From Bradyrhizobium diazoefficiens (lineage in GTDB: Bacteria > Pseudomonadota > Alphaproteobacteria > Rhizobiales > Xanthobacteraceae): a stretch of 64,000 nucleotides of DNA. This document shows positions 3,301 to 41,924 of this stretch, piece after piece; within the stretch, counting starts at the first letter, position 1, and each line of letters starts with the position of its first letter. The position numbers and the translations under genes were made by a program. The notes below the pieces were generated by a model. It saw nothing but the letters and a program-made list of their open reading frames with translations. It did no database searches and was not told where the DNA came from. The stretch covers positions 5,298,501-5,362,500 of the forward strand of contig NZ_CP067102.1 of assembly GCF_016616885.1 (NCBI RefSeq), given 5' to 3'.

Positions 3301-3378
3301 GGCAGAGGCGCTTAGTTGCTTTCATTGCTGGGCAGCAGCTTCATATTTATGGGGTCATGCCCCTCAGGAGCTTATTCC

Positions 3379-4761: not shown

Positions 4762-5483
4762 ACGACTTCGAGATCGAGAGCGCGTAGATTGAGAATCACA
4801 ATCAGGCCTCGGTGATAACGGATGACGCCCCTTGCCTGCATGCGGGAAAGCTGCACCGTAACCCATTGGCGAGTTGAGCCGATCAGATTAGCGAGATCAC
4901 CATGCGTGAACGGGATCCCGATTACGATCTCACGGCCTTGCTGCGAGCCGTAGATATTCGAGAGGAAGACTAACAGACGATGCAACCGCTCGGTAACCGA
5001 GCGGGTCCCCAGCATTTGCGCCATGGCCGAGTAGCACCGTGCCTTGAAGGCGAGTGCATCCAGCAGCGCGACCGCGATACTGGCCGATTGAAGCGCTAGC
5101 GCGCGTAGGGCTGGGCCGGACAAAAACGTCACTTGGCTCCGCTCCACCGCAACCGAAGACCATACGTGGGCACCAGTACCGAACAGATCCGGGCCACCGA
5201 CGAAATTGCCAGCGAACCAGTAGGCCAGCGTCACCTCACGTCCGGACGGAGCCGCGTAGTAGCTGCGGATACGCCCCTCTTTGATCAGATAAATGCCGTT
5301 CTGCAGATCACCCTGCCGCCAGACATGCTTGCCTGCCTGCAGGACCTCCTCGCGGCCGATGGCGAGGATACGACGCCGGTCGGCCTCACACAACGGATCC
5401 AACAAGCCAGGCAGCGACCCGACCAGAGCATCCGATCCCGCCAGCATGATGCCGGTCGTGTTCCTGAGACTTGCCGCTGACAT
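4758..5483 (-). CDS. Crp/Fnr-family transcriptional regulator (copy 1)
   Basis: Crp/Fnr regulator of 241 residues: an N-terminal cyclic-nucleotide-binding-fold sensor domain (GREVTLAYWFAGNFVGGPDLF), a dimerisation helix, and a C-terminal winged HTH (HGDLANLIGSTRQWVTVQLSRM). No FNR-type cysteine cluster is apparent. ATG 5483 was chosen because AAGGGAG stands just upstream; a longer frame to 5522 has no ribosome site. It is the last gene of the leftward operon that begins with the binding protein at 8189, 68 bases after the ATPase gene. It is a clear paralogue of the regulator at 14015, sharing LAYW..GNFVGGP, YSA.AQMLGTRS and TRQWVT. Confidence 0.9.
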   Translation of the reverse strand: MSAASLRNTTGIMLAGSDALVGSLPGLLDPLCEADRRRILAIGREEVLQAGKHVWRQGDLQNGIYLIKEGRIRSYYAAPSGREVTLAYWFAGNFVGGPDLFGTGAHVWSSVAVERSQVTFLSGPALRALALQSASIAVALLDALAFKARCYSAMAQMLGTRSVTERLHRLLVFLSNIYGSQQGREIVIGIPFTHGDLANLIGSTRQWVTVQLSRMQARGVIRYHRGLIVILNLRALDLEVV

Positions 5484-5551
5484 CTGCTCGCTCCCTTGCC
5501 GCCGCAAGGAAAAACCATTCAAGAGCCATGCCAGAGCATGTCGTCAGGCGC

Positions 5552-6418
5552 TTATGTACTGATTTCCAGTTGCTCGAAGGCCCTGCGGCCTTCCGACCGG
5601 ATCAGGTCGAGGCAATCCCGCTTGAGGGCGAGATAGGCAGCCTCCGCGACGATGGCGCTGGAGCGCGGTCGCGGCAGGTTCACCTGGAGATCTTTGAGAA
5701 TGCGGCCTGGCCCCGCGCTCATGATCAGCACACGGTCAGAGAGAAGGATCGCTTCATCGATGTCGTGTGTGACGAAGACGATTGTTGCGTTGATCCGCTC
5801 GCGGAGCTCGAGCAGATTGTCCTGCATGACCGCCCGGGTCTGCGCATCCAGCGCTCCGAAAGGCTCGTCCATCAACAGCACGCGCGGCTGATTGGCGAGG
5901 GCACGGGCAATCGCGACCCGCTGCTGCATGCCTCCAGAGAGCGTGTGCGGATATGCCGACGCAAACTTGGTCAGTCCGATCATCTCGATAAGGTCGTCGG
6001 CAATCCGCAGCGCCTCCGCTTTCGGCTTGCCGAGGGCGCGCGGCCCGTGTGCGATGTTCCGGCGCACCGATTTCCACGGAAACAGATGTGGCTGCTGGAA
6101 GACCATCCCGATCTCGGGCCGTGGCGCGAGCATTACTTCGCCGGCTATGAGCACTTGCCCTTCAAACGGCCGCTCGAGGCCGGCCATCGCATTCAGGAGC
6201 GTGGACTTGCCGCAGCCGGATGGACCGACGATCGAGACGAATTGCCCTTGGGCTACCGCCAGGGATACGCGATCGACCGCGATGACCTGTCCGCTCGGCA
6301 CATCGAAGACGATGCTCAACTCTTCGACCCGGATGATCGCCTGACGCGCCGGGGCGGAAGGCGAGTGCGTATCCACGAGCCTGAGCGGCTGGTCTGGACG
6401 AAGCAAGCTCGAGGTCAT
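5552..6418 (-). CDS. ABC transporter ATP-binding protein, nitrate/sulfonate/taurine (SsuB/NrtD) type
   Basis: Cytoplasmic ATPase of an NMT1/SsuABC-type importer, 288 residues. It has Walker A GPSGCGKST, Q-loop VFQQPHLFPWKS, signature LSGGMQQR, Walker B VLLMDEPFGALDAQ and H-loop VTHDIDEA. The LFPWKS and HDIDEA forms are characteristic of this class. The start at 6418 overlaps the permease stop (ATGA); the longer open frame to 6823 is a shadow of the permease gene. Order binding protein-permease-ATPase-Crp indicates one operon. Confidence 0.95.
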   Translation of the reverse strand: MTSSLLRPDQPLRLVDTHSPSAPARQAIIRVEELSIVFDVPSGQVIAVDRVSLAVAQGQFVSIVGPSGCGKSTLLNAMAGLERPFEGQVLIAGEVMLAPRPEIGMVFQQPHLFPWKSVRRNIAHGPRALGKPKAEALRIADDLIEMIGLTKFASAYPHTLSGGMQQRVAIARALANQPRVLLMDEPFGALDAQTRAVMQDNLLELRERINATIVFVTHDIDEAILLSDRVLIMSAGPGRILKDLQVNLPRPRSSAIVAEAAYLALKRDCLDLIRSEGRRAFEQLEIST

Positions 6419-7194
6419 CGCCACCACACGGCACGTTCGGCAAGAGTCGCGAAGGAACGGTCGGCGACGAAGGAAAGCAGCCCGAGAGCCGCCAACCCGC
6501 CCATGACCTGACCCGTTTGCATGTTCTGTTGCGCAATTTCGATACGATAAACGATCCCAGCGAACGCTCCCGCCAACTCGGCGGCGACCAGCGTGTAGAA
6601 GGAGATACTTACCGCGGTCCGAAGACCGACAGTGATATAGGGCAGCGCGCCAAGAAGGACGATCTCCCACAGCATCTGCGGCTGCGGCGTGCCGAGCATC
6701 TGGGCGGCACGGATAAGTCCGGGATCGACCTTCTGCACCCCTATGTGGGTCGCAAGCCATACCGTGAAGAACACGCCCCAAACGACCAGGAAGAGCTTGC
6801 CTGTCTCCGAGAGGCCAAACCAAAGGATGACGATCGGCACGAAGGCGACGGGAGGAATTGGACGAAGGATGTGAAACAAAGGTGAAAGCAGGCTAGAGAC
6901 CAGCCGGAACCGGCCAGTCAGGACGCCGAGCACGATCCCGCCCGCGGCCCCGATCGCAAATCCTCCGGCCACACGCGAGAGACTCGCCATTAGGTCGCCG
7001 AAAAATTGTCCGCTGCGGATCCATTCGAGAATGGCGACAGCGACGGTCGATGGCGGCGGAAACAGCACGGCGTTCACGATGCCGGAGCGTGCAACCAGTT
7101 CCCACACGCCTGTGAAGGCGGGCACGGAGAGGACGGCGACCAGTACGCTCAGCCGTGCGGTCGCGCTCGCACTGTTGCCTCGCCCGACGCTCAC
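6415..7194 (-). CDS. ABC transporter permease, SsuC/NrtB/TauC type
   Basis: Inner-membrane permease of 259 residues with about six hydrophobic segments and an EAA-like loop (RAAQMLGTPQPQMLWEIVLLGALPYI). The GTG start at 7194 overlaps the upstream stop (GTGA) and gives the usual length for the family. An upstream frame to 7314 would read into the binding-protein gene. The LRPIPPVAFVPIVILWFG segment is typical of sulfonate/nitrate/taurine permeases. It is translationally coupled to the genes on both sides. Confidence 0.93.
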   Translation of the reverse strand: MSVGRGNSASATARLSVLVAVLSVPAFTGVWELVARSGIVNAVLFPPPSTVAVAILEWIRSGQFFGDLMASLSRVAGGFAIGAAGGIVLGVLTGRFRLVSSLLSPLFHILRPIPPVAFVPIVILWFGLSETGKLFLVVWGVFFTVWLATHIGVQKVDPGLIRAAQMLGTPQPQMLWEIVLLGALPYITVGLRTAVSISFYTLVAAELAGAFAGIVYRIEIAQQNMQTGQVMGGLAALGLLSFVADRSFATLAERAVWWR

Positions 7195-8189
7195 GGGCGC
7201 GCCTCCAGTGTGACGCGAGCTGGATCGAGGGCCTTCAGCGGCGCCGTCACCAAGACTTTCGAGAAATCGGGCATGCTCGCTCCAGGGGGATGATTGCCGG
7301 TCTCGAGCCGCCACGCGGCATGGGTTTTCAGAGTCGCGAGAAGCTTGTCGTCGAGGCGCACGTGGTAGACATAGTCTGGCCAGATCGAAGCCAATTCATC
7401 GCGTTTCATCCCGGTCGCTGCGGCGATGACGTCGATCGCTTCACCCGGATTCGCCTTGAGCCAGCCCTCGGCTTCGATGAGGGACGCCAGGAACTTGCTG
7501 ACGATCGCCGGATTGGCCGCGAGGTAAGACTGCGTAACGACAATATTGAAGGTCTCCGAGTAGAGACCTTTGGTCTCAAGCGGGATCGCGCCCTCGCCAA
7601 GAGCCTTCTTCGCATTCGCGACGTGCGGCTCCCAGGTATCGAACGCGTCGATGCTGCCGGCCGCCATGGCGGGAAGCATCTCCTGAGGCCGCAGGTTGAC
7701 GAGCGTCACGTCCTTCGAAGTCAGGCCCGCCGCTTTCAACAGGACCGACGTGTACACTTCGCTGCCGGTTCCGGCCGTAAAGGCGATTCGCTTTCCACGC
7801 AGATCGGCCTTCGTCTTGATACCGGCAGGAGCTGCGGTCATGGTCTTGAGATCCGAATATTCCATTCCCGCCACGAAGGCGATCGGTTGTTGCGCCATCG
7901 CGGCCGCCGTGACCGGCGCCTCGGCGGTTGTTGCGATATCCGCCCCTCCCCCGAGCACCGTATCGAGGCACTGCTTCCCGCTGGTGAAATTGGACACCGA
8001 AATCTCGAGCCCCTGCTTGACGAAAATGCCCTTCGCATTGGCGATAATCGTCAGTCCCGAGATCGGCCCAAGATTCTGGGCGAGCTGCGCCTTCAGCAAT
8101 TCTTCGGCTGTCGCGCGCTCAGACGTCGCAAACAGGAAGGACGCAGATAGCACGAACACGGCAGAGCGAAGACCAGTTGTTAATCGCAT
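7191..8189 (-). CDS. NMT1/SsuA-type ABC transporter substrate-binding protein
   Basis: Periplasmic binding protein of 332 residues with a Sec signal peptide (start MRLTTGLRSAVFVLSASFLF, processed after ATA around residue 28). It has the NMT1/SsuA fold signature: GADIATTAEAPVTAAAM and the DLRGKRIAFTAGTGSEVY block. This class imports sulfonates, nitrate, taurine, pyrimidine precursors and similar small anions; the ligand is not readable here. ATG 8189 was chosen for the signal peptide; longer frames to 8375 are non-coding. It is the first gene of the operon, and the CRAYTARTYG palindrome sits 78 bases upstream. The amidase at 3379 hints that the ligand may end as allophanate or urea-like nitrogen. 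Confidence 0.92.
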   Translation of the reverse strand: MRLTTGLRSAVFVLSASFLFATSERATAEELLKAQLAQNLGPISGLTIIANAKGIFVKQGLEISVSNFTSGKQCLDTVLGGGADIATTAEAPVTAAAMAQQPIAFVAGMEYSDLKTMTAAPAGIKTKADLRGKRIAFTAGTGSEVYTSVLLKAAGLTSKDVTLVNLRPQEMLPAMAAGSIDAFDTWEPHVANAKKALGEGAIPLETKGLYSETFNIVVTQSYLAANPAIVSKFLASLIEAEGWLKANPGEAIDVIAAATGMKRDELASIWPDYVYHVRLDDKLLATLKTHAAWRLETGNHPPGASMPDFSKVLVTAPLKALDPARVTLEARP

Positions 8190-8266
8190 GCCACAACCCT
8201 CTGATGCCGGCGACCGGAGTGATCGACCGTGACGACAGGGTCGTCTGAAGACGGGAGACCGTGAAG

Positions 8267-8276
8267 CAATTAATCG
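8267..8276. promoter_or_regulatory. CRAYTARTYG palindrome, site A
   Basis: CAATTAATCG, a perfect match to the degenerate palindrome CRAYTARTYG, 78 bases upstream of the start of the binding-protein gene at 8189. It is one of six such sites in 6.6 kb (see sites B-F). Confidence 0.6.
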
Positions 8277-8388
8277 ACAAGGCCCGACGCTGTCCAATTT
8301 TTGCGCAAGCAGACCAGCTTCCGACTGCGACCGGGGCAATAAATTCATCAAGCTGCTCACACCTTGGGCGCCCAAGCCTGATCCCGAT

Positions 8389-9348
8389 TCAATCAGAACC
8401 GATCGGGCTTTCGATGCCGTTGCGTGCGCGGCGAAACCAGGCCCACGTCTGCCGCGTCACTGCGATGTAGCCCGGGCACCGGTAGACGATCTGATCGGCG
8501 ACGATCCGGTTCAGTTTCGGCAGCGCATGGAACGGAATCGAAGGATAGGCATGGTGCTCGACATGATAGGGCATGTTCCATGCAAACCAGCGCGCGAACA
8601 TGGCGGTATAGGTGGTGCGGGTATTCTGGAAGGCGCTGCGCGTGCGATCGCAACCAGTGTGTTCGGCAAGGAGATACGGCCGCAGAAACAATTGACCGAC
8701 GATCACGGGGACGACCCAGACCCACAACAGGATCACGGTGTGCTGTGCGACCGACGCCAGCAGCAGCGCGACGTAGCCTGCCAGATGGAGGCGCGCTTCC
8801 GTCACGACGATGTGGCGTTTGCTTTCCGGAATCCAGGACGACGTGGCGTTTCCAGTCAACGCATGGCGAAGCATCAGCCGCACCCGGAAGGCAACTTGCC
8901 GCAAGCCGCTGTACACGACCACCAGTTGCGCGTCCGAGGTCGGGATCGGCACCGACAGCAGTTCCGGATCCCTCTTTGGATCCTGCGTATAGCGATGATG
9001 ATCCCAGTGGAACAGGCAGTAATATTCGTAAGGCAAGCCGACCGCGAACGAGGAGAGATGACCGAAGGCGAGATTAAGCGCGCGGCTGCGAAACGCCGTC
9101 TTGTGGGCGGTCTCGTGGACCACCATGAATAGGAATGCTACAAAGTAGCCTTGGACGACGACCAGCGGCAACGCCCAGACGATTCCGTATCGCGACGAGA
9201 CCAGCCAGATCAGCACGCCGACAACGACGATGACGCCGTAGTGGCTGGCCGCACGGACCAGACCTTGCCAATCGGACCGCGCCGACAACTCGCGCAGCAT
9301 GGCCGGAGTCAACGGCTTCTCTCCGGTGGCAGTGATGGCATTGCTCAT
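8389..9348 (-). CDS. Membrane fatty-acid-desaturase-family diiron protein
   Basis: Integral membrane protein of 319 residues with the three histidine boxes that bind the diiron centre: HETAH (78-82), HWDHH (114-118) and HVEHH (262-266), plus an extra histidine in LAEHTGC (about 230). Hydrophobic segments flank the boxes. Family members desaturate or hydroxylate lipids and other hydrophobic substrates with O2 and electrons from a ferredoxin or cytochrome b5. It stands alone between two leftward operons and has palindrome site B 108 bases upstream. The ferredoxin/FNR genes next door could supply electrons; that is an inference. A hydroxylase on a small imported substrate is an alternative. Confidence 0.85.
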   Translation of the reverse strand: MSNAITATGEKPLTPAMLRELSARSDWQGLVRAASHYGVIVVVGVLIWLVSSRYGIVWALPLVVVQGYFVAFLFMVVHETAHKTAFRSRALNLAFGHLSSFAVGLPYEYYCLFHWDHHRYTQDPKRDPELLSVPIPTSDAQLVVVYSGLRQVAFRVRLMLRHALTGNATSSWIPESKRHIVVTEARLHLAGYVALLLASVAQHTVILLWVWVVPVIVGQLFLRPYLLAEHTGCDRTRSAFQNTRTTYTAMFARWFAWNMPYHVEHHAYPSIPFHALPKLNRIVADQIVYRCPGYIAVTRQTWAWFRRARNGIESPIGSD

Positions 9349-9455
9349 GATCGTAGACGCCTCTCTCCGGGATCACGCACTTGACCGTGCTCGTGCTGAC
9401 GCTGGAATTCGTCAAGCACAGACCGATCCTAGGGACCGACGCCGCAACGCATAAG

Positions 9456-9465
9456 CAATTAATTT
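9456..9465. promoter_or_regulatory. CRAYTARTYG palindrome, site B (one mismatch)
   Basis: CAATTAATTT, nine of ten positions of CRAYTARTYG, 108 bases upstream of the desaturase-like gene. In gene direction it is followed by GCTTATG, similar to the GCTATC and GCTTCAC that follow other sites. Confidence 0.45.
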
Positions 9466-9564
9466 CGCGGCACTTTGCTCCTAGCGGTCGATGTTCGCGT
9501 GCTGGCAGGAAGAACGCCTTACAGACGGCAATTACGTTGCTGCACCGAACTGGTCCTCTCCACC

Positions 9565-10542
9565 CTACGGACTTGCCTTCCCCTTTCGCGCGGCGATCTG
9601 TTGGAGCGCCCAGCGCGCGTTCTTGCGGACATCGGGGTCGGGATCGTTGGCAATCACCGCGAGGTAGGCCTCACCCTCGGGGACGGCGATCTCGCCGAGC
9701 GCGGCAGCCGCCTCCTTTCGCAAATTCGCTTGCTCGTGGCTGATGCAGTTGCCGATCGCGCGCAAAGCGCCCTCGACCTTCATCTTGCCCAAGCTACGGA
9801 TCGCCTTCAGCCGCACCTGCCAGAATTCGTCGGTGAGCGCGCCGACGAGCTGGTCGGCGGCGAGCGAACCGTTGACGTTGAGACCGAGGGTCTCCGCCGC
9901 CATCTCGCGGACCATCCAGTCGACGTCCTTCAAAGCTCGCGTAATCGTCTCGGCCGCGGGCTTCAGCTGCGAAAAGGCCAGCGCACTCACGGCGGCACGG
10001 CGCACATGGGCGTCGGGATCGGTGATCAGCGCGGTCAGCGCGGGGATGGATTCCTCCAGCTTCAGAAAGCCGATCACGCCGATCGCCTGCACGCGCACGG
10101 CAGCATCGGAATCCTGCAGCGCTTCGAGCGTCGGCTTCAGTGTGTCCTTGCGCCGCAACTCCTTGAGCGCGCGCAGGGCGCCCATGCGAACGAAGGCGTG
10201 GGCATGCTTGACCAATGGCAGGATGACATCGGCGCAGGCAGGATCCTTGAACTCGGCCATGCTGTCGGCCGCAGCGGCCGCAACGATCCTTTCGGGATCG
10301 ACTAGCAGCCTCACCAGCGCGCTTGCGGCTTCCGGCCCGTCAAACTCGCCGAGCGCCATCGCAACCTGCTGGCGCACGCCGGCATCGGGATCGGCGACCA
10401 TCTTGGCGAGATGGGCGACCGCTGCAGGATCGCCGGAATGACCGAGCGCGATGATGGCGACACGGCGCTCGGCAGGATCGGCGGCCTGAAGCCGCTCGTC
10501 GGCGTCTTCGAGATCATCGTAGGATTCGAACGGGCTCGACAT
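9565..10542 (-). CDS. HEAT-repeat protein, third gene of AprA/AprB-like operon
   Basis: A 325-residue protein made almost wholly of about nine HEAT/PBS-lyase-type repeats, each with the pattern D.d..VR..A..ALG (for example DPDAGVRQQVAMALGEF and DPDAHVRRAAVSALAF). No signal peptide and no catalytic motif are seen, so a cytoplasmic scaffold or assembly role is likely. ATG 10542 follows the ferredoxin stop by two bases, so the genes are co-translated. The longer frame to 10623 reads across the ferredoxin gene. Constant company of the flavoprotein and ferredoxin suggests it helps assemble or dock that complex. Confidence 0.9.
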   Translation of the reverse strand: MSSPFESYDDLEDADERLQAADPAERRVAIIALGHSGDPAAVAHLAKMVADPDAGVRQQVAMALGEFDGPEAASALVRLLVDPERIVAAAAADSMAEFKDPACADVILPLVKHAHAFVRMGALRALKELRRKDTLKPTLEALQDSDAAVRVQAIGVIGFLKLEESIPALTALITDPDAHVRRAAVSALAFSQLKPAAETITRALKDVDWMVREMAAETLGLNVNGSLAADQLVGALTDEFWQVRLKAIRSLGKMKVEGALRAIGNCISHEQANLRKEAAAALGEIAVPEGEAYLAVIANDPDPDVRKNARWALQQIAARKGKASP

Positions 10543-10544
10543 GA

Positions 10545-10778
10545 TCACCTCAGGAGATAGGGAATATTGACGGTGACGGCGCCGGTCGGGCAATCGGCCT
10601 CGCAGGGCATGCAGTACCAGCACTCGTCATAGGCCATGTAGGCCTTGCCGGTCATGTCGCTGATGCGCAGCACGTCGAGCGGGCAGACGTCGACACAGAC
10701 GGTGCAGCCCTTGTCGGCTATGCATTTGGCGTCGTCGACGACCACCGGAACCGATGTCTGATAGGAAGCGAGAGGCAT
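10545..10778 (-). CDS. Small two-cluster [4Fe-4S] ferredoxin, AprB-like
   Basis: A 77-residue ferredoxin with two cysteine sets. The first, CIADKGCTVCVDVCP, has the wide first gap of AprB (C-x5-C-x2-C-x3-C). The second, ECWYCMPCEADCPTGA, closely follows the AprB pattern ECW.C..C...CP.GA. It is about half the length of true dissimilatory AprB (about 150 residues) and lacks the C-terminal tail that wraps AprA. It lies 31 bases after the AprA-like flavoprotein and 2 bases before the HEAT gene. Its likely role is to pass electrons between ferredoxin-NADP reductase and the flavoprotein. Confidence 0.92.
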   Translation of the reverse strand: MPLASYQTSVPVVVDDAKCIADKGCTVCVDVCPLDVLRISDMTGKAYMAYDECWYCMPCEADCPTGAVTVNIPYLLR

Positions 10779-10809
10779 TTTATGTCTCCTGTTGCTATGG
10801 TGCGGTGGA

Positions 10810-12552
10810 TCAGGCGCTGGCGCGGATGCGCTGCTTGTCGTAGAGGTCCTTTTCGTCGTCGGCGATCGGGACGACGTACGGCTCGACGGCGCGCTTCTCG
10901 CTGGTCATCTTGCCGTTCTGCTTCGACAGCAGCGTGTGGCAGAACCAGTTCTCGTTGTCCTTCTCCGGGAAATCGGTACGCCAGTGATAGAGACCCCAGC
11001 GGCTCTCCTCGCGATAGAGCGAGGCATGCACAGCCATGTCGGCACAATCCATAATCGACTGCACTTCCAGCGCGCGGAGCAGCTCGTGCGCGTTGCGCGC
11101 CATCATGCGCTCCTGCATGTCCTCCCTCACCTCGGCCAGGCGGCGCATACCGAGCTCGTATTTGCGCGTAACCTTTGGTGGCTGGAGATAGTCGTTGACG
11201 AGACGGCGGGTCTTGTATTCGACCTGGTTCGGCGGAATGCCGTCCTCGCGCTTGGTCGGCGCCAGCACGCGGTCGCGCTCCTTCGCGACATCGGCCGCAT
11301 CGAACTCGGCGAAGTCATGGCTGTCGGCAAACTCCATCGCGTCGATGCCGGCAACCGAGCCGTTGGTGAAGGCACCGAGCATGTAATTATGCGGCACGCT
11401 CGCCATGTCGCCCGCGGCGTAGAGGCCCGACACGGTGGTGCGCGCATTGTCATCGACGAACACGCCCGAGGCGCTGTGGCCGGAGCAAAAGCCGATCTCG
11501 GAGATGTGCATCTCAATCGAGTCGTTGCGATAATCGACCCCGCGTCCCTGCTGGAACAGGCCGCGCGTCGGCCGCTCCACCTTGTGCAGCGTGGATTCGA
11601 TCTCCGAGATGGTGTCGGGGTGGAGATGCTTGAGCTGGAGGAACACCGGGCCCTTGCCGGACAGCAGCTCGTTGTAGAACTCCAGCATCATCTGGCCGGA
11701 CCAGTAGTCGCATTCGATGAAGCGCGAGCCCTCGTTGTTGGCCGTAAACGCGCCGAACGGACCGGCGACATAGGCGCAAGCCGGGCCGTTATAGTCCTTG
11801 ATCAGCGGATTGATCTGGTAGCATTCGAGGTTCGCGAGCGCGGCGCCGGCGTGATAGGCCATCGCGTAGCCGTCACCGGAATTGGCGGCGTTCTCGTAGG
11901 TGCCGAACATGTAGCCTGAGGTCGGCAGACCGAGGCGGCCGGCGGCGCCCATGCAGAGGATCACGGCCTTGGCCTTGATCACGAGGATCTCGGCCGTGCG
12001 GGTGTTGACGCTGATCGCACCAGCGATGCGGCCATCGCTGGATTTGAGCAGCCGCGTCGCCATGTAGCGGTTGGAGATCAGGATACGCGCGCGGCGGAGC
12101 TGGCGGTAGAGCGCCTTCTTCACGGTCTCACCGTTCGGCATCGGCAGAACGTAACTGCCGATATGGTGCACCTTCTTGACGGCGTAATCGCCGTTCTCGT
12201 TCTTCAGAAAGCGGATGCCGAAACTGTCGAGCTCCTCGACGATTTTGTAGCAGTTCTGCGCGTATTTATAGACCGCCTTCTGGTCGACGATGCCGTCGTT
12301 CGCAATGGTAATTTCCTTGGTGTATTGCTCCGGTGTCGCATAGCCCGGAATGACAGCATTGTTCAGCCCGTCCATGCCCATCGAGATCGCGCCGGAGCGC
12401 TTGACGTTGGCCTTTTCGAGCAGGACGACGTTGGCCTTCGGATTCTTCAGCTTCGCCTTCAGCGCCGCCATCGGGCCGGCGGTGCCGCCGCCGATCACCA
12501 GCACATCGCAGGAAACCTCCGAAAGTCCGTCGATGATCTGATCTAGTGCCAT
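10810..12552 (-). CDS. AprA-like FAD oxidoreductase (fumarate reductase/APS reductase superfamily)
   Basis: A 580-residue flavoprotein of the succinate dehydrogenase/fumarate reductase/AprA superfamily. FAD binding is shown by GGGTAG (21-26), the EKANVKRSGAISMG block and the C-terminal GLYAAGDMAS. Overall length and the partner ferredoxin are closest to APS reductase alpha subunits, but the organism's context is not sulfate respiration: sat and quinone-linked subunits are absent from this window. No Tat or Sec signal, so cytoplasmic. AGGAG stands 8 bases before ATG 12552, and palindrome site C is 72 bases upstream. Reaction unknown: reduction of an oxidised sulfur or nitrogen compound is plausible but unproven. 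Confidence 0.88.
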   Translation of the reverse strand: MALDQIIDGLSEVSCDVLVIGGGTAGPMAALKAKLKNPKANVVLLEKANVKRSGAISMGMDGLNNAVIPGYATPEQYTKEITIANDGIVDQKAVYKYAQNCYKIVEELDSFGIRFLKNENGDYAVKKVHHIGSYVLPMPNGETVKKALYRQLRRARILISNRYMATRLLKSSDGRIAGAISVNTRTAEILVIKAKAVILCMGAAGRLGLPTSGYMFGTYENAANSGDGYAMAYHAGAALANLECYQINPLIKDYNGPACAYVAGPFGAFTANNEGSRFIECDYWSGQMMLEFYNELLSGKGPVFLQLKHLHPDTISEIESTLHKVERPTRGLFQQGRGVDYRNDSIEMHISEIGFCSGHSASGVFVDDNARTTVSGLYAAGDMASVPHNYMLGAFTNGSVAGIDAMEFADSHDFAEFDAADVAKERDRVLAPTKREDGIPPNQVEYKTRRLVNDYLQPPKVTRKYELGMRRLAEVREDMQERMMARNAHELLRALEVQSIMDCADMAVHASLYREESRWGLYHWRTDFPEKDNENWFCHTLLSKQNGKMTSEKRAVEPYVVPIADDEKDLYDKQRIRASA

Positions 12553-12623
12553 CGCTTGCTCCTGGTTCGCCGGCGCACCGGCGCCTCTGCATCAGCTTTG
12601 TTCAGGGCGCTTTCCGGCGATAG

Positions 12624-12633
12624 CAATTAGTTG
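12624..12633. promoter_or_regulatory. CRAYTARTYG palindrome, site C
   Basis: CAATTAGTTG, a perfect match, 72 bases upstream of the AprA-like gene start and between it and the upstream fpr gene. Confidence 0.6.
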
Positions 12634-12655
12634 TCGCCGGGAAGCGATTTGCGCC

Positions 12656-13429
12656 TCAACGCTCGACGAAGGCCTTCTCGATGACGAAATGGCCGGGCTG
12701 GCTGTGATTGCCCTCGACAAAGCCGCGTGCGGAGAACATCGCGGGGAGCTCCTCGAGCATCGCCGGGCTGCCGCACAGCATGATGCGATCGGTCTCGATA
12801 TCGAGGCCGGACTGGCCGATGTCGTCGAACAGCTGGTTGGAGGCGATCAGGTCGGTGATGCGGCCACGGTTGCGGAACGGCTCGCGGGTGACGGTCGGGT
12901 AGTAGACGAGCTTGTCGCGGATCAAGGGCCCGAAGAATTCGTGATCGCGCAGGCCGTCGACGAGGTGCTCGCCATAGGCAAGCTCGGAGACCTGGCGGCA
13001 GCCATGGGCGAGCACGATGGTCTCGTAATTCTCGTAGACGTCGGGATCCTTGATCAGGCTCGCGAACGGCGCGAGGCCCGTGCCGGTCGAGAGCAGCAGC
13101 AGACGCTTGCCCGGAATGAGGTTGCCGCTGATCAGCGTGCCCGTGGCCTTGCGGCCGACCAGGATAATGTCGCCTTCCCTGATCTTCTGCAGACGCGAGG
13201 TCAGCGGGCCGTCTTGCACCTTGATTGAGAAGAATTCGAGTGCTTCCTCGTGATTGGCGCTGGCCATGCTGTAGGCCCGCATCAACGGCTTGCCATTGAC
13301 CTCGAGGCCGATCATCGCGAACTGACCATTCTGGAAGCGGAATCCGGGATCACGCGTCGCGGTGAAACTGAACAAGGAGTCGGTCCAGTGCCTGACCGAC
13401 AAAACCGTTTCCTTCTGAAATGCGCTCAT
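12656..13429 (-). CDS. fpr: Ferredoxin--NADP(+) reductase
   Basis: FAD-containing reductase that moves electrons between NADPH and ferredoxin, 257 residues, the usual length of the bacterial subclass. It shows the FAD motif RAYSMAS, the NADP-binding stretch STGTGLAPFASL and CGSPAMLEELPAMF near the C-terminus. ATG 13429 has AAGGAGAG just upstream; a frame to 13489 has none. It runs in the same direction as the AprA-like operon, 103 bases ahead, with its own palindrome (site D, 79 bases upstream). Together they give a complete NADPH-to-flavoprotein electron path. Confidence 0.95.
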   Translation of the reverse strand: MSAFQKETVLSVRHWTDSLFSFTATRDPGFRFQNGQFAMIGLEVNGKPLMRAYSMASANHEEALEFFSIKVQDGPLTSRLQKIREGDIILVGRKATGTLISGNLIPGKRLLLLSTGTGLAPFASLIKDPDVYENYETIVLAHGCRQVSELAYGEHLVDGLRDHEFFGPLIRDKLVYYPTVTREPFRNRGRITDLIASNQLFDDIGQSGLDIETDRIMLCGSPAMLEELPAMFSARGFVEGNHSQPGHFVIEKAFVER

Positions 13430-13507
13430 GATCTCTCCTTGGCCCTCGATGACGCGCAAGGTTTCGGAGAGACGGGACTCCGGCAACACGGAAGTGAAAT
13501 TCCCGGT

Positions 13508-13517
13508 CGATTAGTTT
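13508..13517. promoter_or_regulatory. CRAYTARTYG palindrome, site D (one mismatch)
   Basis: CGATTAGTTT, nine of ten positions, 79 bases upstream of fpr in the divergent fpr/DUF971 promoter region. Confidence 0.45.
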
Positions 13518-13580
13518 CAAATTTCGTGAGCGGCGATTGAAGAGCAGGCAGCGACGAACGTGTGATTGCGCCTACGCCGG

Positions 13581-13590
13581 CAATTAGTTG
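13581..13590. promoter_or_regulatory. CRAYTARTYG palindrome, site E
   Basis: CAATTAGTTG, a perfect match, ending 50 bases before the DUF971 start in the same divergent region as site D. It is preceded by GCCGG and followed by CTATCC, as around site C. Confidence 0.6.
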
Positions 13591-13639
13591 CTATCCGCGC
13601 GATCCGGCGCCGACGTAGAGAGGAAATCGGAGGTTCGTC

Positions 13640-13942
13640 ATGACCATGACCTTGGTGGCACCGACCGTGGCCGACTACGAAGCAAGCGCCGATCTCGCGA
13701 CGCTCCTCGTCCGCACCACCGAGGGCGACGTACTCATCGTTCCCGCCGAAAAACTCCGCCTGTCCTGCAAATGCGCCCACTGCACCCGCGCCCGCTTCGA
13801 TGGCCGCTTCCCCAGCGCATTTCCGGGCATTGCCATCACCGAGATCGGCGATCTCGGCTATGGACTGAACATCTCGTTCTCGGACGGACATAATCGGGGG
13901 ATTTACCCCAAGCCGTATCTGCTGAGCCTGGCGGGGCGGTAG
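13640..13942 (+). CDS. DUF971 / gamma-butyrobetaine hydroxylase N-terminal-like protein
   Basis: A 100-residue protein of the DUF971 (GBBH-like N-terminal) family. The SCKCAHC motif (C-x-C-x2-C) and a downstream histidine fit the zinc site of the family. Free-standing members have been linked to Fe-S or complex assembly, but no reaction is established. ATG 13640 follows GGAGGTTCGTC. It is divergent from fpr and precedes the sigma-54 promoter of the second Crp gene by 19 bases. The position suggests an accessory role for the Fe-S/flavoprotein module, an inference. Confidence 0.88.
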   Translation: MTMTLVAPTVADYEASADLATLLVRTTEGDVLIVPAEKLRLSCKCAHCTRARFDGRFPSAFPGIAITEIGDLGYGLNISFSDGHNRGIYPKPYLLSLAGR

Positions 13943-14014: not shown

Positions 14015-14788
14015 ATGTTGCAGGCGGCAAATGCGGTTCGCGGCACTGCTCCCCCGTCAATCCGGCCTGCGGGCAGTTCCTCGCTGCTGCTGACCGAGAA
14101 CCAGCAATGGATCGGCGGGCCGCCGCCGCTGATGGACAAGCTCACCCCGCGCGAGCGGGAGCTGGTGTTGAAGCAGGGCCGCCGCAAAGTGCTTAACCGC
14201 GGCCAGACGCTGTTCAGCCAGGGCGGCAAGCATGACGGCATCTGGCTAGTCGAAAGCGGCCGCATCCGGGTATTCTACACCTCCCCGCTCGGGCGCGAGA
14301 TCACGCTCGCCTACTGGCACGTCGGCAATTTCGTTGGCGGGCCCGAAGTGTTCGAAGGCACCGTGCATCAATGGTCCGGCGTCGCATCCAGCAATTGCAG
14401 CGTGGTGCACCTGCCAGGAAAGGAATTGCGATCCCTTGCCGCGGAGATCCCGAATCTCGCGATTGGCCTCATTGAGGGCCTGACCTTCAAGGGCAAATGC
14501 TATTCGGCGCTGGCCCAGATGCTGGGTACGCGCTCGATCACGCAGCGCCTTGCGCACCTGCTACTGCATCTCGTCGATCTCTATGGCGTCGAGGACGCCG
14601 ATGGGCGCGTGATTGCGGCTGCCTTCACCCATGCCGACATTGCCCACATGGTCGGCGCCACCAGGCAATGGGTCACGATCAGTTTGAAGCGCATGCAGGA
14701 GAAGGGAATCGTCCTGACCAAGCGCTCGCAGATCGTGGTCTCCCGCTCCGACGTGCTGGAGGAGATGCGCGGCCACGCATCCGACTAA
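14015..14788 (+). CDS. Crp/Fnr-family transcriptional regulator (copy 2)
   Basis: A 257-residue Crp/Fnr regulator with a sensor domain (GREITLAYWHVGNFVGGPEVF), dimerisation helix and winged HTH (HADIAHMVGATRQWVTISLKRM). No FNR-type Cys cluster is seen. ATG 14015 is preceded by CCGGAGGC; the frame also opens at 13973, inside the promoter. It is closely related to the regulator at 4758-5483, and both are next to NMT1-type transporter operons. It is transcribed from the sigma-54 promoter at 13962. It is a good candidate to bind the CRAYTARTYG palindromes around it. Confidence 0.93.
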   Translation: MLQAANAVRGTAPPSIRPAGSSSLLLTENQQWIGGPPPLMDKLTPRERELVLKQGRRKVLNRGQTLFSQGGKHDGIWLVESGRIRVFYTSPLGREITLAYWHVGNFVGGPEVFEGTVHQWSGVASSNCSVVHLPGKELRSLAAEIPNLAIGLIEGLTFKGKCYSALAQMLGTRSITQRLAHLLLHLVDLYGVEDADGRVIAAAFTHADIAHMVGATRQWVTISLKRMQEKGIVLTKRSQIVVSRSDVLEEMRGHASD

Positions 14789-14957: not shown

Positions 14958-16391
14958 ATGAGAACGAGAATGGTCCGCCATCTTCCCACGCTCTCGATCG
15001 CGATGTCGATGACGTCGCTGGCGCTGATCCTCGCGCAGCCGGCTTCGGCGGAAACCGTCACCCTCGGCATCGGAACGCAGGACACCACAACCAATACGGT
15101 GACCGCGGGCGTCGTCATCCGCCAGCTCCATCTCCTCGAAAAATACCTGCCTAAGGACGGCAAATACGCCAACATCAAGTTCGAGCTGGAGTGGCAGAAT
15201 TTTACGTCCGGCCCGCCCGTCACCAACGCGATGATGGCGAACAAGCTGCAGATCGGCATGATGGGCGACTATCCGCTGATCGTGAACGGCTTCACCTTCG
15301 ACAGCAATCCAGAGAGCAAGAGCCGACTGATCGGCATCGCCGCCTACAGCCTCTCCGGCTCCGGCAACGGCATCGTGGTCCACAAGGACTCGCCCTATTA
15401 CGATCTGGCGGATCTCAAGGGCAAGCTCGTCAGCGTGCCCTTCGGCTCCGCCGCACACGGCATGGTGCTGAAGGCGATGCAGGATCGTGGCTACGCGGCC
15501 GATTTCTTCCAGCTTGTCAGCCAGAGCCCGGAGGTCGGCTCGACCAATCTCCAGGAGAAGAAGATCGACGCGCATGCCGACTTCGTCCCCTTCGCCGAAT
15601 TGCTTCCTTTCCGCGGCTTCGCGCGAAAGATCTTCGACGGCGTCGAGACCAATCTGCCGACCTTCCACGGCATCGTCGTCCGCACCGACTTCGCCGAGAA
15701 ATACCCCGAGGTCGTCGTCGCCTACTTCAAGGCGCTGATCGCGGCCAATCAGTGGCTGCGCGACGATCCCAAGCTTGCTTCCGAAAAGATCCAGGAATGG
15801 ACCGGCATCAACAAGGAAGTCGTCTACATCTTCCTCGGTCCCAGCGGCAACATGACCACCGACCCCACGGTCAAGCCGGCGCTGATCGAAGCGGCCGCCA
15901 CCGACGTCAAGGTGCTGCAGAATCTCGGCCGCATGAAGGAGTTCGATCCGAAGAAATGGGTCGACGACAGCTACATTCGCAAGGCCTATGCCGAGATGAA
16001 GCTCGACTATGACACCCAGCTTGGGAGCACCAAGAACTACGAAATCTCTGGCGAAGACGCCTTCTGCAAGAAGCCGATCACCGATCCGCGCAAGGCCGGC
16101 GAGGTCTGGGTCGACGATGCCGGCATCATGCCGTTCTCGTCCGCCAGCTGCACGCTCGGGGCCTATGCCGACTTCAAGATCAAGGGCAAGAAGATCAACG
16201 TCGCCTACGTCTTCGACACCACCCGCGGCATCAAGCTGTTCGCCGACCAGGCTTTCTTCGCGGTCGGCAATGGCGACGTCGCGCCGTTCCTGCTTAAGAA
16301 GGACGCGGAAGCCTATGCCGCCAAGATCAGCGGCAAGGTGCTCGGCTTCGACGACGCGGTGAAAGCGGCAGTCAGCGGAGGCAAGACGTGA
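14958..16391 (+). CDS. NMT1/NrtA-type substrate-binding protein with C-terminal NosL-like domain
   Basis: Periplasmic ABC binding protein of 477 residues, much longer than the usual 320-400. A Sec signal peptide ends near ASAET (about residue 32). Residues about 33-330 form the NMT1/NrtA binding fold (GMMGDYPLIVNGF, DLKGKLVSVPFGSAAHGM). Residues about 375-470 resemble NosL, the copper-binding accessory lipoprotein: VAYVFDTTRG..., FADQAFFAVG..., KKDAEAYAAKISGKVLGFDD, preceded by an isolated SASC. The start is uncertain between ATG 14958 and 14970, with weak ribosome sites; 14916 is too early. First gene of the importer operon, behind palindrome F. The added domain may sense or hold a metal; function unknown. 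Confidence 0.85.
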   Translation: MRTRMVRHLPTLSIAMSMTSLALILAQPASAETVTLGIGTQDTTTNTVTAGVVIRQLHLLEKYLPKDGKYANIKFELEWQNFTSGPPVTNAMMANKLQIGMMGDYPLIVNGFTFDSNPESKSRLIGIAAYSLSGSGNGIVVHKDSPYYDLADLKGKLVSVPFGSAAHGMVLKAMQDRGYAADFFQLVSQSPEVGSTNLQEKKIDAHADFVPFAELLPFRGFARKIFDGVETNLPTFHGIVVRTDFAEKYPEVVVAYFKALIAANQWLRDDPKLASEKIQEWTGINKEVVYIFLGPSGNMTTDPTVKPALIEAAATDVKVLQNLGRMKEFDPKKWVDDSYIRKAYAEMKLDYDTQLGSTKNYEISGEDAFCKKPITDPRKAGEVWVDDAGIMPFSSASCTLGAYADFKIKGKKINVAYVFDTTRGIKLFADQAFFAVGNGDVAPFLLKKDAEAYAAKISGKVLGFDDAVKAAVSGGKT

Positions 16392-17299
16392 GCAGTCCCG
16401 CCCTTGTCAGACATCCCGAGGACAGAAGCATGCCAGCAGCCCTTGCCGAAGCGGGCCTCCTGCCCGCCGTCACGCCCCCGGCCACACCGCCCTCTTTCGG
16501 CACGCTCGCGCTGCGCTGGTACCGCCTGAACCAGGGCCGGCTGCGCGCGACCGCGATCGGCATCATCTCGCTGCTCGCCTTCCTGCTGATCTGGCACCTG
16601 CTCACGACTTACCGCGTCGTGTTCTTCGTGCGCTTCACCAACGTACCCTCGCCGGTCGCGGTCTATGCGAGCTTCACCAAGGCCATCCACGATCCCAAAT
16701 TCCTGCTGCACATCGCGCTGAGCTGCCGGCGCATCTTCATCGGCTTCTCACTCGCCGCCATCGTCGGCGTGCCACTTGGTCTCATCATGGGCCGCTTCAA
16801 GCTGGTGCATGAGATCATCTTTCCGGTCGCGGAGGTATTGCGGCCGATCCCGGCGATCGCCTGGGTGCCGATGGCGATCATGCTATGGCCGACCAACGAG
16901 CAGAGCATCGTCTTCATCACCTTCCTCGGCTCGTTCTTCCCGATCCTGGTCAACACGCTGCACGGGATGTCCTTGGTCGATCCCGTGCTGGTGCGCGCCG
17001 CGCAATGTCTCGGAGCTCGCGAACGATCGATCTTCCGCGATGTGTATTTTCCGGCGTCGCTGCCGCACATCTTCACCGGCCTCACCGTCGGCATGGGCGT
17101 GGCCTGGGTATCGCTGATCGCGGCCGAGATGATCTCGGGCCAGTACGGTATCGGCTATTTCACCTGGGAGGCCTATTCGCTGGTCCAATATGCCGATATC
17201 GCGCTCGGCATGATCGCGATCGGCGTGCTCGGCCTGGGATCGAGCCTGCTGATCAGGGGCGCCGGACAGCTGGTGATGCCGTGGAGGCCGACGAGATGA
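16388..17299 (+). CDS. ABC transporter permease, NrtB/SsuC type
   Basis: Inner-membrane permease of 303 residues with a long cytoplasmic N-terminus (about 55 residues) and about six transmembrane segments. The LRPIPAIAWVPMAIMLW block and the EAA-like loop RAAQCLGARERSIFRDVYFPASLPHI mark the nitrate/sulfonate/taurine class. The GTG start overlaps the stop of the binding-protein gene (GTGA), so translation is coupled. Confidence 0.94.
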   Translation: MSSPALVRHPEDRSMPAALAEAGLLPAVTPPATPPSFGTLALRWYRLNQGRLRATAIGIISLLAFLLIWHLLTTYRVVFFVRFTNVPSPVAVYASFTKAIHDPKFLLHIALSCRRIFIGFSLAAIVGVPLGLIMGRFKLVHEIIFPVAEVLRPIPAIAWVPMAIMLWPTNEQSIVFITFLGSFFPILVNTLHGMSLVDPVLVRAAQCLGARERSIFRDVYFPASLPHIFTGLTVGMGVAWVSLIAAEMISGQYGIGYFTWEAYSLVQYADIALGMIAIGVLGLGSSLLIRGAGQLVMPWRPTR

Positions 17300-18168
17300 G
17301 TGAGATTCCGGCGAGCGAACCGAAAGGCCATATCCAGGTCAGAAACTTCTCCCTCAGCTATGACAGCATCGAGGAGCCGGTTCAGGCCGTCACGGACACG
17401 CAGATCCATGTGAGGCCCGGGGAGTTCGTCTCGATCGTCGGTCCCTCCGGCTGCGGAAAGTCGACGCTTCTCAATGCGGTTGCGGGCTTTCTCAAGCCGA
17501 CCACCGGCATCGTCACCGTAGATGGCGAGCGCGTGAACGGCCCGAGTGCCGAGCGGGGCATGGTGTTCCAGCAATATTCGCTATTTCCCTGGAAGACGGT
17601 GCGGGAGAACGTCGAGTTCGGCCTGAAAATGCGCGGCATGCCGCGCTCGCAGCGCGAACGCGCCGCGCGCACCCTGCTCGGCCTGGCGGGACTCGAAGCC
17701 TTCGAGAAGCACTATCCGGAAAAACTCTCCGGCGGCATGAAGCAGCGCGTCGGCATCGTCCGCGCGCTCGCGACGGGACCGAAGGTACTGCTACTGGATG
17801 AACCCTTTGGCGCGCTCGACGCCCAGACCCGGGTCATCATGCAGCAGATCCTCACCAACATGTGGCAACGGCTGAAGATCTCGGTGCTGTTCGTCACTCA
17901 CGACATCGACGAGGCAATCTTCCTCTCCGACCGCGTCTACTGCATGACCGCGCGCCCCGGCTCGATCAAGGCGGAGATACCAATTCCGCTGGAGCGCCCA
18001 CGCCAGCAATCGATGATGATGTCGTCGGAATTCTTGGCGCTGCGCCGCGGCCTGATGTCCCTGATCCGCGAGGAAAGCCTGAAGGCGATGGGCGGCGAGA
18101 TCAACGATCTCGGCATGCAGGGATTGAACATCGAGCTGCACGGCCATTCGCTGGTCGAGGTGCTTTAG
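17296..18168 (+). CDS. ABC transporter ATP-binding protein, NrtD/SsuB type
   Basis: ATPase of 290 residues with Walker A GPSGCGKST, Q-loop VFQQYSLFPWKT, signature LSGGMKQR, Walker B LLLDEPFGALDAQ and HDIDEA. The ATG overlaps the permease stop (ATGA). The longer frame to 16885 is a shadow of the permease gene. It completes a three-gene importer (14958-18168) paralogous in layout to the one at 5552-8189. Confidence 0.95.
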   Translation: MSEIPASEPKGHIQVRNFSLSYDSIEEPVQAVTDTQIHVRPGEFVSIVGPSGCGKSTLLNAVAGFLKPTTGIVTVDGERVNGPSAERGMVFQQYSLFPWKTVRENVEFGLKMRGMPRSQRERAARTLLGLAGLEAFEKHYPEKLSGGMKQRVGIVRALATGPKVLLLDEPFGALDAQTRVIMQQILTNMWQRLKISVLFVTHDIDEAIFLSDRVYCMTARPGSIKAEIPIPLERPRQQSMMMSSEFLALRRGLMSLIREESLKAMGGEINDLGMQGLNIELHGHSLVEVL

Positions 18169-40260: not shown

Positions 40261-40276
40261 GGGCCCTTTCGGGCTT
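40261..40276. terminator. Short hairpin between convergent genes
   Basis: GCCC-TTTC-GGGC (40263-40274) with two outer G-T pairs, between the small secreted gene and the end of the formate dehydrogenase gamma gene. There is no T-run, so it is at best a weak bidirectional terminator. Confidence 0.3.
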
Positions 40277-41276
40277 ATTCCGCCGCTGCGGTCGCGGGTT
40301 GGGTCCGTTGATCGTTCGGTCCGGTCCGCCCACTCTGTTCATCGAGCCACAGGCTATGATGTTCGCGCGCCCAGTTGAGGTCGACCTCACCCGTTCCCAT
40401 CGCCTCGAAAGCTCCCTCCATCCCGATCGTGCCGATGTAAACATGCGCGATCATTGCAGCCACGAATAGGACGGATACCACGGAGTGGATGATCTGGGCC
40501 ATCTGCATGCCTTCGATGCCGCTCATGTAGAACGGGAACATCAGCGCATATCCCGTCGCGGCAACGAGGCCACCTCCGATCACCACGATCCAATAGATCA
40601 TCTTCTGGCCGGCATTGAAGCGATAGGCCGGCGGATGATCATGGCCGACAATGCCCCCTCCCCGCTTGATCCAGGCAACATCCACCTTGTTCGGGATATT
40701 TCCCGCGATCCACATCAGGAAGATCAGGATGACGCCGATGGTGAATGGGAAACTCAGATAATTGTGGGCATACTTCGCCCATTGCGACCATTCAGAGAAG
40801 GCTTCAAAACCGATCAGCGGCAATAACAACGGCCGCCCGAACGTGATGTTCAGACCGGAGATGGCGAGGATGATGAAGCAGCTGGCTGTCATCCAATGCA
40901 CGAAGCGCTCAAACAAGGTGAAGCGCACGATGGTGCGTCCCGATCGCCCGCTTTCGAGGCGCACCATGCCGCGAGTGAGATAGAAGACCACGAGCAGCGC
41001 CAGCATGCCGACAATCGCGACGCCACCGATCCAGCGCAGCGTGACATTGCGAAACTCCCGCCATTCGCGGCCCTGCGGCTGCTCGAGCACGCCCGACCTC
41101 TGATCCGGAATGCTGACACGACCCTGGATCCGGTTGAGCTCCTGCAACAGTTGCTGCTCCTTGACGGAGCTCGCCGTCGGGTTGATCTGTTGGGCCCCCG
41201 CTGGAGCCGCCACGATCACCAGAAGCAGCGCGGATGCGCCGAACGCCAGGCGAAGGAATCTTCCAAATGACGGCAT
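40275..41276 (-). CDS. Formate dehydrogenase gamma subunit (cytochrome b556)
   Basis: A 333-residue membrane subunit that passes electrons from the beta subunit to quinone. A signal-like N-terminus (to GAQQ, about residue 29) precedes a periplasmic stretch, then about five membrane segments. Heme-ligand histidines are in ERFVHWMTA, KYAHNYLSF and IIHSVVSV/IAHVYIG. The C-terminal tail, TGEVDLNWAREHH, is characteristic of FDH gamma. Last gene of the fdh transcript. Confidence 0.95.
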   Translation of the reverse strand: MPSFGRFLRLAFGASALLLVIVAAPAGAQQINPTASSVKEQQLLQELNRIQGRVSIPDQRSGVLEQPQGREWREFRNVTLRWIGGVAIVGMLALLVVFYLTRGMVRLESGRSGRTIVRFTLFERFVHWMTASCFIILAISGLNITFGRPLLLPLIGFEAFSEWSQWAKYAHNYLSFPFTIGVILIFLMWIAGNIPNKVDVAWIKRGGGIVGHDHPPAYRFNAGQKMIYWIVVIGGGLVAATGYALMFPFYMSGIEGMQMAQIIHSVVSVLFVAAMIAHVYIGTIGMEGAFEAMGTGEVDLNWAREHHSLWLDEQSGRTGPNDQRTQPATAAAE

Positions 41277-41315
41277 TTACGCCTCCTGGTATCGCGTCCT
41301 TGACTGCGGTGCGCG

Positions 41316-41912: not shown

Positions 41913-41924
41913 CGTCGCTGCTCC

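Follow-up and report, generated by a model that had tools for sequence, protein, structure and literature searches.

What does an enzyme that resembles the flavoprotein subunit of adenosine 5'-phosphosulfate (APS) reductase do when it is encoded beside an importer? This question is raised by a 64-kb window of the genome of Bradyrhizobium diazoefficiens (single contig, 8.09 Mb; "the window" denotes the whole stretch of 64,000 nucleotides that was analysed), in which an AprA-like flavoprotein, an AprB-like ferredoxin and a HEAT-repeat protein are encoded next to a ferredoxin–NADP reductase, a DUF971 protein, a Crp/Fnr-family regulator and an ATP-binding cassette (ABC) importer. These genes very probably form a reductase module, no substrate being named. 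The more specific reading favoured here, put forward tentatively and at slightly less than an even chance, is a flavoprotein reductase that is coupled to the importer, driven by ferredoxin, constructed around the core of AprAB and 3'-phosphoadenosine 5'-phosphosulfate (PAPS) reductase and active on an organosulfur compound. Its narrowest form, a third AprAB-type class that would reductively desulfonate or open an imported organosulfur nutrient, with a ferredoxin fed by Fpr, Rnf or Nfn and a HEAT scaffold, is a possibility of clearly lower standing.

The genes concerned are the following:

9565..10542, minus strand: HEAT-repeat protein of 325 amino acids (aa), by domain match
10545..10778, minus strand: AprB-like ferredoxin of 77 aa with 8 Cys and two 4Fe-4S motifs (ECWYCMPC, with a conserved Trp)
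10810..12552, minus strand: AprA-like flavin adenine dinucleotide (FAD) flavoprotein of 580 aa, NCBIfam PRK08275 family
12656..13429, minus strand: ferredoxin–NADP reductase (Fpr-like; PRK10926 133.6 bits, below the cut-off of 390), its start taken as the in-frame ATG at 13429
13640..13942, plus strand: DUF971 (GBBH-like_N) protein, by domain match
14015..14788, plus strand: Crp/Fnr-family regulator, putative reader of a palindrome
14958..16391, plus strand: NMT1/Tau-type substrate-binding protein of importer 2, with a NosL-like C-terminal domain at about 16098-16364
16388..17299, plus strand: ABC permease of importer 2, recurring in 96 of 100 loci
17296..18168, plus strand: ABC ATPase of importer 2, recurring in 95 of 100 loci

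A preliminary description of this DNA had placed the flavoprotein, a half-length ferredoxin and the HEAT protein in one operon, with fpr and DUF971 next to it under the same palindrome and an NMT1-type importer on either side. This layout was recovered in full: the three genes are contiguous, with gaps of 2 nucleotides (nt; HEAT/ferredoxin) and 31 nt (ferredoxin/AprA-like), fpr and DUF971 adjoin them with palindromic sites in between, and both importers are found in the window.

The neighbourhood survey that the preliminary description had called for shows that the set recurs. It covered 110 loci (80 from named genomes, 19 from further genomes and 11 from plasmids), of which 10 reached less than 4 kb on one side and were dropped, leaving 100 for the counts, each with 4 kb or more to either side. 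Two are exact repeats (L126 of L027, L122 of L060), and L005-L084 are the best 80 of 593, in which Bradyrhizobium near-copies weigh heavily; the groups are reported apart. Component counts follow our own tblastn score thresholds, and gene calls in unannotated loci are our own reading-frame picks. The ferredoxin is present in 98/100 loci, the HEAT protein in 99/100, the long Tau-type binding protein in 93, its permease in 96, its ATPase in 95 and DUF971 in 86; the corresponding counts in the 57 loci outside Bradyrhizobium are 55, 56, 50, 53, 52 and 43. The single HEAT exception is Tsukamurella, where HEAT is fused to the flavoprotein in a protein of 893 aa, which bears out its proposed partnership with the flavoprotein. 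Hosts include alpha-, beta- and gammaproteobacteria, Acidithiobacillus, cyanobacteria and actinobacteria. Of 398 Pseudomonadota genomes sampled, 21 encode a flavoprotein above the PRK08275 cut-off, and so do 5 of 274 genomes in a class draw whose centre was a member of the 21 and is included in both counts; similar flavoproteins are found in 51 plasmid records. Many alphaproteobacteria keep the order DUF971-aprA-Fd-HEAT (Fd, ferredoxin) with a Crp regulator, and Acinetobacter and eight genomes (L113-L120) have GntR-aprA-Fd-SBP-permease-ATPase-HEAT-DUF971 (SBP, substrate-binding protein), an order shared by Cupriavidus with no annotated DUF971. A reshuffled order with constant parts is what would be expected of a functional unit. 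The module of seven to nine genes is conserved and not local to Bradyrhizobium. The regulator in one cyanobacterial plasmid (L129, 6646-8661) is a long LysR protein with an NMT1-like domain, as if it were sensing the imported compound intracellularly. A long LysR-type regulator is likewise encoded in another cyanobacterial plasmid locus (L131, 6388-8424). In L148, a 220-aa frame without Pfam match (5278-5940) lies between the importer 2 permease and ATPase genes.

The flavoprotein has its nearest relatives in Bradyrhizobium (98% identity), and it is a clear member of NCBIfam PRK08275 (1060 bits, cut-off 587), with the Pfam domains FAD_binding_2 and Succ_DH_flav_C. It stays below the cut-off of PRK13800 (799 against 1196 bits), a family to whose C-terminal part the HEAT protein aligns. 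Both families carry the name "fumarate reductase/succinate dehydrogenase flavoprotein subunit", a misleading one for which, to our knowledge, no reaction has been assigned. In the Protein Data Bank (PDB), the chain nearest to the flavoprotein comes from the PAPS reductase of M. thermolithotrophicus (alpha subunit, 8a8o_A, 2.2e-64), followed among solved relatives by A. fulgidus AprA (1.3e-38). Two "APS reductase alpha" models miss their cut-offs on it (284 against 557 bits and, for the curated aprA model TIGR02061, 165 against 642 bits), and the curated aprB model TIGR02060 stays below its own (32/136 bits).

The preliminary description had proposed examining the active-site residues for APS, and substrate residues prove to be replaced. 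In AprA, we take Arg265 (a sulfite/sulfate ligand), Trp234 and the active-site His to have substrate-site roles. By alignment with the A. fulgidus protein, Arg265 corresponds to Leu250 and Trp234 to Tyr219 of the window flavoprotein, and Gln145 to Val135, a pairing that is less sure as the stretch is gapped; Asn74 is retained as Asn64. Relative to the methanogen enzyme, His346 is retained as His359, Arg237 is replaced by Leu250, and the PAPS loop Lys120/Arg121/Ser122 aligns, beside a gap, to Val128/His129/His130. Gln145 and this loop are substrate-contact residues according to the available part of the report on the methanogen enzyme (PMC10322725). Among 56 relatives, drawn from locus L052 onward, 169 flavoprotein positions are invariant, and Leu250, Tyr219, His129 and His359 are so in 56/56; the pocket has been rebuilt and has not decayed. 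With an invariant Leu at the position of Arg265 and other residues in place of the PAPS loop, the enzyme is unlikely to be a P/APS reductase, and that identity was set aside.

The ferredoxin matches about the first 65 residues of AprB and then ends, as "half-length" had implied. Provided that the alignment spans, which are of equal length, contain no gaps, the Trp of its CWxC motif (Trp54) corresponds to Trp42 in the beta subunit of the methanogen enzyme, and Trp42 has been proposed for electron transfer (PMC10322725, seen in part). By sequence, then, the AprAB architecture of an FAD subunit and a ferredoxin subunit with two 4Fe-4S clusters is preserved, and formation of a complex may be expected. 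DUF971 and an Mrp/NBP35 ATPase never co-occur among the 100 loci: Mrp is present in three, all cyanobacterial plasmids, and neither is recognised in 11 loci outside Bradyrhizobium. As Mrp, which has an Fe-S assembly domain, takes its place, DUF971, assigned to the module from the start, is probably a cofactor-assembly or docking helper for the Fe-S part.

The source of electrons bears on the direction of the reaction. FdxA, a 7Fe ferredoxin, is encoded near the module in 29/100 loci (26/57 outside Bradyrhizobium), and Fpr in 22/57. The place of Fpr is taken by Rnf genes in 2/57 (L147 and L148, both proteobacterial; RnfA-D were assigned by models or matches, RnfG and RnfE in L148 by reading frames only) and by an Nfn/GltD-like protein of ~1150 aa in another 2/57 (A. 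caldus L127; L145). The latter proteins score 573 and 607 bits against PRK06567, below its cut-off of 1072, and would act as ferredoxin-reducing donors. Since three unrelated NAD(P)H:ferredoxin systems share one slot, the complex would consume reduced ferredoxin, and these donor swaps point to reduction. No fdxA was recognised within the window cluster; the genome's fdxA lies elsewhere, with a perfect palindrome (C1:7774658) 128 nt upstream and 71% identity to a Methylobacterium fdxA, and this second ferredoxin, although encoded outside the cluster, probably joins the chain.

In the proposed mechanism, importer 2, with its NosL-like-tailed binding protein, would take up a small compound. NAD(P)H would reduce ferredoxin via Fpr, or elsewhere via Rnf or the Nfn/GltD-like protein, and electrons would pass from FdxA to the 8Fe AprB-like subunit and along the conserved Trp to the FAD of the AprA-like subunit, which would reduce the imported compound. 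The HEAT protein would hold the complex together, and DUF971 (or Mrp) would assist in assembling or docking its Fe-S part; the products may, in certain lineages, be handled by amidases, by an M20 deacylase and by exporters of sulfite/sulfate type. Reduction of an organosulfur substrate would free sulfur for assimilation. The preliminary description had envisaged a soluble NADPH-driven reductase for an imported oxidised sulfur or nitrogen compound, working through an NADPH-Fpr-ferredoxin-AprA-like path. The recurrence of Fpr and FdxA outside Bradyrhizobium and the replacements of Fpr uphold this path; an oxidised sulfur or nitrogen compound as its substrate is conjectural.

As to that substrate, the favoured organosulfur compound is a guess on which several lines converge, with a nitrogen compound as the main rival. 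These lines are the kinship of the core to P/APS reductases, the importer, the exporters and the monooxygenases. Importer 2 (14958-18168) is near-universal in relatives and part of the module, and by sequence profile the solved proteins nearest to its binding protein are TauA (8.8e-22) and SsuA (4.2e-20 and 3.5e-16), the fourth being one named nitrate transport protein; it remains below the cut-offs of the SsuA family (115/163.5 bits) and TauA (69.5/304 bits). YeiH genes, of sulfite/sulfate-export type, are found near the module in 31/43 Bradyrhizobium loci and 7/57 others, and YeiH or TauE/SafE exporter genes adjoin it elsewhere (two cyanobacterial plasmids, L070, L071). Flavin mononucleotide (FMN)-monooxygenase genes lie near it in L059, L063 and Cupriavidus, in the last with an SsuA-type gene.

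At lower coordinates than the core, the window holds a second set of genes:

3316..4761, plus strand: allophanate-hydrolase-type amidase (accessory; TIGR02713 527 bits, cut-off 511)
4758..5522, minus strand: second Crp/Fnr-family regulator (accessory), resembling the first in sequence; as queries, the two retrieve genes of one kind in related loci
5552..6418, minus strand: ABC ATPase of importer 1 (accessory)
6415..7314, minus strand: ABC permease of importer 1 (accessory), start uncertain
7191..8189, minus strand: NMT1-type substrate-binding protein of importer 1 (accessory)
8389..9348, minus strand: fatty-acid-desaturase-type membrane oxygenase (accessory)

Importer 1 and the desaturase are recognised in only 3/43 close Bradyrhizobium neighbours, and the second Crp likewise. 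In Afipia (L066), Tardiphaga (L060), Roseovarius (L084) and L146, however, the module also has NMT1-type importer genes and an allophanate-hydrolase-type amidase nearby; because of these similar pairs, we read the window's importer 1, desaturase and second Crp gene as an accessory part of the system and not as chance neighbours. The window amidase is without the C-terminal part of the TIGR02713 model (it matches 2-417 of 563), and a full-length match of this type is encoded at C1:705625.

The cluster also shares a palindrome, GCAAYTARTTGC, with the following sites:

13580..13591: perfect palindrome GCAATTAGTTGC, between fpr and DUF971
12623..12634: one mismatch, upstream of the aprA-like gene
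9455..9466: one mismatch, upstream of the desaturase gene; similar site in L023, L024 and L029
14873..14884: weak, palindrome-like, two mismatches, upstream of binding protein 2
8266..8277: weak, palindrome-like, two mismatches, upstream of binding protein 1

Further two-mismatch sites lie at 3308, 7091 and 48436. The whole genome has 15 sites with at most one mismatch, three of them in the cluster, and the reversed-pattern control gives 56, which speaks against any general enrichment of the sequence; its two perfect copies are those at fpr/DUF971 and fdxA. In 109 of the 110 loci (L068, with <500 nt upstream, was left out), the palindrome was sought up to 700 nt 5' of the flavoprotein gene. 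It was found in 44/44 Bradyrhizobium loci, in keeping with the shared palindrome of the preliminary description, in 19/26 other Crp-type loci, in 7/8 with both regulator types, in 6/13 with neither recognised and in 0/18 GntR-type loci, against dinucleotide-shuffle expectations of 0.15, 0.1, 0, 0 and 0.05, respectively. As the site is frequent with Crp-type regulators and absent with GntR-type ones, the Crp/Fnr regulator (14015..14788) is its probable reader. A set of 31 Bradyrhizobium genomes contains 34 perfect sites, each of which was inspected. Of these, 32 stand at system-type genes: 16 at fpr/DUF971 (two at fpr only), 14 upstream of fdxA, one 5' of a PRK06169-like amidase gene with 78% identity to the L066 or L060 type, and one flanked by an M20 gene (30%) and a TauE/SafE-like gene (25% identity, weak); nothing was recognised at the other two. 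An order-wide draw found a perfect site in at least 58 of 247 genomes, and 50 inspected loci correspond to 47 distinct places (L198/L218, L199/L219 and L197/L201 being counted once), eight at module genes, one at fdxA and three at a Crp paralogue. The palindrome marks the system well in Bradyrhizobium; it defines no genome-wide regulon across the order. The three loci with a Crp paralogue (42-44%) behind the perfect palindrome, L207, L208 and L209, may represent a sister regulon. The site in L208 has neighbours that resemble a radical SAM protein of B12 type and split UxaA/SuyAB-like genes, possibly a sulfo-lyase.

Several observations weigh against the organosulfur reductase and its regulation as read here. 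Fpr, Rnf and the Nfn/GltD-like protein are all unrecognised within reach in 31/57 loci outside Bradyrhizobium. The invariant Leu at the Arg265 position argues against the same sulfur-oxyanion chemistry. No YeiH or TauE match was found in the window, and sulfite/sulfate export by YeiH is a family name only. Amide hydrolases near the module, in 14/100 loci, point to nitrogen. Regarding the palindrome, the reversed pattern also gives 34 perfect sites in the 31 genomes, so that the count alone is meaningless and the placement of the sites is what informs; genome G035 has the fdxA palindrome and no flavoprotein match, so the site is not module-specific; in L085 there is an overlap between the site and the end of the reading frame before it; and 35 of the 47 order-wide places have no recognised gene of the system.

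The alternative that survives best keeps the same reductase module and gives it a nitrogen substrate (an N-heterocycle, ureide or amide), which would be reduced and then hydrolysed by the amidases or the M20 deacylase; it is less likely than the organosulfur reading, though a serious contender. Reductive pyrimidine catabolism offers a precedent for reduction followed by hydrolysis, and NMT1 proteins carry pyrimidines too. Two amidase families and the M20 deacylase recur in the gene run of the module or under the palindrome, which precedes the amid2 gene and the M20 gene in two Bradyrhizobium genomes. L066 has the run amid2-amid1-importer 1-DUF971-aprA and L146 one of twelve genes, and the amidases of Nostoc and Methylocystis are 51% identical to each other and 49-57% to those of Afipia and Tardiphaga. 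The allophanate-hydrolase type occurs in 10/100 loci, the PRK06169 amidase in five and M20 in three, with homologues of the first near the module in L048, L060, L066, L070, L082, L084, L122 and, cut at the locus end, L146. Nevertheless, none of the three hydrolases is present in 86/100 loci, sulfite/sulfate-type exporters recur near the module, and the names of three of the four closest solved binding proteins refer to taurine or sulfonates. A compound with both sulfur and an amide would fit the two sets of lines.

A copper or metal-chelate system, in which the binding protein would carry a Cu-ligand complex and the reductase release the copper, is improbable. It would explain the NosL-like C-terminal domain, found in 19/31 binding proteins at E up to 0.1 (best 1e-6; 19.4 bits in the window protein, Pfam cut-off 24), and the copper-type genes near the module outside Bradyrhizobium (SCO1 15/57, PCuAC 13/57, dihaem-type cytochrome c 15/57). 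However, the columns of this domain hold no invariant Cys, Met or His, and SCO1 is unrecognised in 85/100 loci. Less probable again is a complex that works oxidatively and feeds electrons to ferredoxin: the parts alone leave the direction unfixed, but the three unrelated reducing systems that adjoin them, Rnf included, speak for the opposite one.

A third, methanogen-like class of assimilatory APS/PAPS reductase is very improbable. The nearest solved structure is indeed a PAPS reductase, with the same kind of small ferredoxin subunit and relay Trp, but the substrate residues are replaced as described, an intracellular nucleotide needs no dedicated importer, and the genome already has a CysH-type gene (PRK02090 267.5 bits, above the cut-off of 154), its three PF01507 genes being this one and two CysD. 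Finally, an ordinary succinate dehydrogenase or fumarate reductase, as the database name and Pfam domains would have it, is scarcely credible and was rejected, given a TIGR01812 score of 170 bits against a cut-off of 567 and the SdhA motif QFHPT, whose His we take to be a dicarboxylate-site residue, reading QINPL with Asn248 in its place; moreover, no membrane-anchor subunits were recognised among the neighbouring window reading frames.

Among known systems, the organosulfur reductase proposed here comes closest to the M. thermolithotrophicus PAPS reductase (PDB 8a8o), which likewise combines an FAD subunit of the fumarate reductase family with a small two-cluster ferredoxin whose Trp42 matches Trp54, and which is assimilatory, not respiratory; it differs in its PAPS loop and Arg237, unconserved in the window protein, and the available part of its report mentions no HEAT, DUF971 or importer for it (PMC10322725). 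With AprAB of A. fulgidus and M. gigas it shares the flavoprotein-ferredoxin architecture, Asn74 and, via the methanogen enzyme, the active-site His, whereas Arg265, Trp234 and Gln145 are changed, the ferredoxin ends after the cluster domain and both subunits score below the aprA/aprB cut-offs. It belongs to PRK08275 and its HEAT protein matches the C-terminal part of PRK13800, although the flavoprotein itself falls short of the latter. Importer 2 resembles TauABC/SsuABC in its nearest solved relatives, but its binding protein is longer, has the NosL-like domain and stays below both family cut-offs. The same core genes, with FdxA adjoining, are carried by the A. caldus plasmid pTcM1, and in the accessible portion of one report a "ferredoxin/APS reductase/GntR" cargo module is described on A. 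caldus plasmids, with organosulfonate uptake and assimilation as a prediction only (PMC12375680). Searches of the open-access literature, which leaves out subscription papers such as the original pTcM1 paper, showed no description of the AprA-like/ferredoxin/HEAT trio. Locus tags for the cluster in USDA110 were not found, nor was the cluster found in the available part of a paper on microoxia. The B. japonicum bll6449-6455 sulfonate cluster was considered and dropped: in the part of the source at hand, bll6449 is a methyltransferase, bll6455 an ABC binding protein, and the present set is unmentioned.

Elsewhere in the window, genes at 40275-44873 resemble, by eye, a membrane-bound formate dehydrogenase with a cytochrome b subunit, and the open reading frame list includes a 673-aa frame with several ferredoxin-like Cys motifs at 49250-51271.

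A conserved module has thus been hidden behind the name "fumarate reductase/succinate dehydrogenase flavoprotein". Known sulfonate assimilation proceeds by oxygenase and lyase routes; if the substrate is a sulfonate, a reductive route of sulfonate use, widespread in bacteria, would stand beside them. If it is a nitrogen compound, the module would represent an unrecognised ferredoxin-dependent catabolic entry. For either substrate class, the system lends itself to testing, as it comprises a single importer with its binding protein, a single reductase complex and a regulator whose site is defined.

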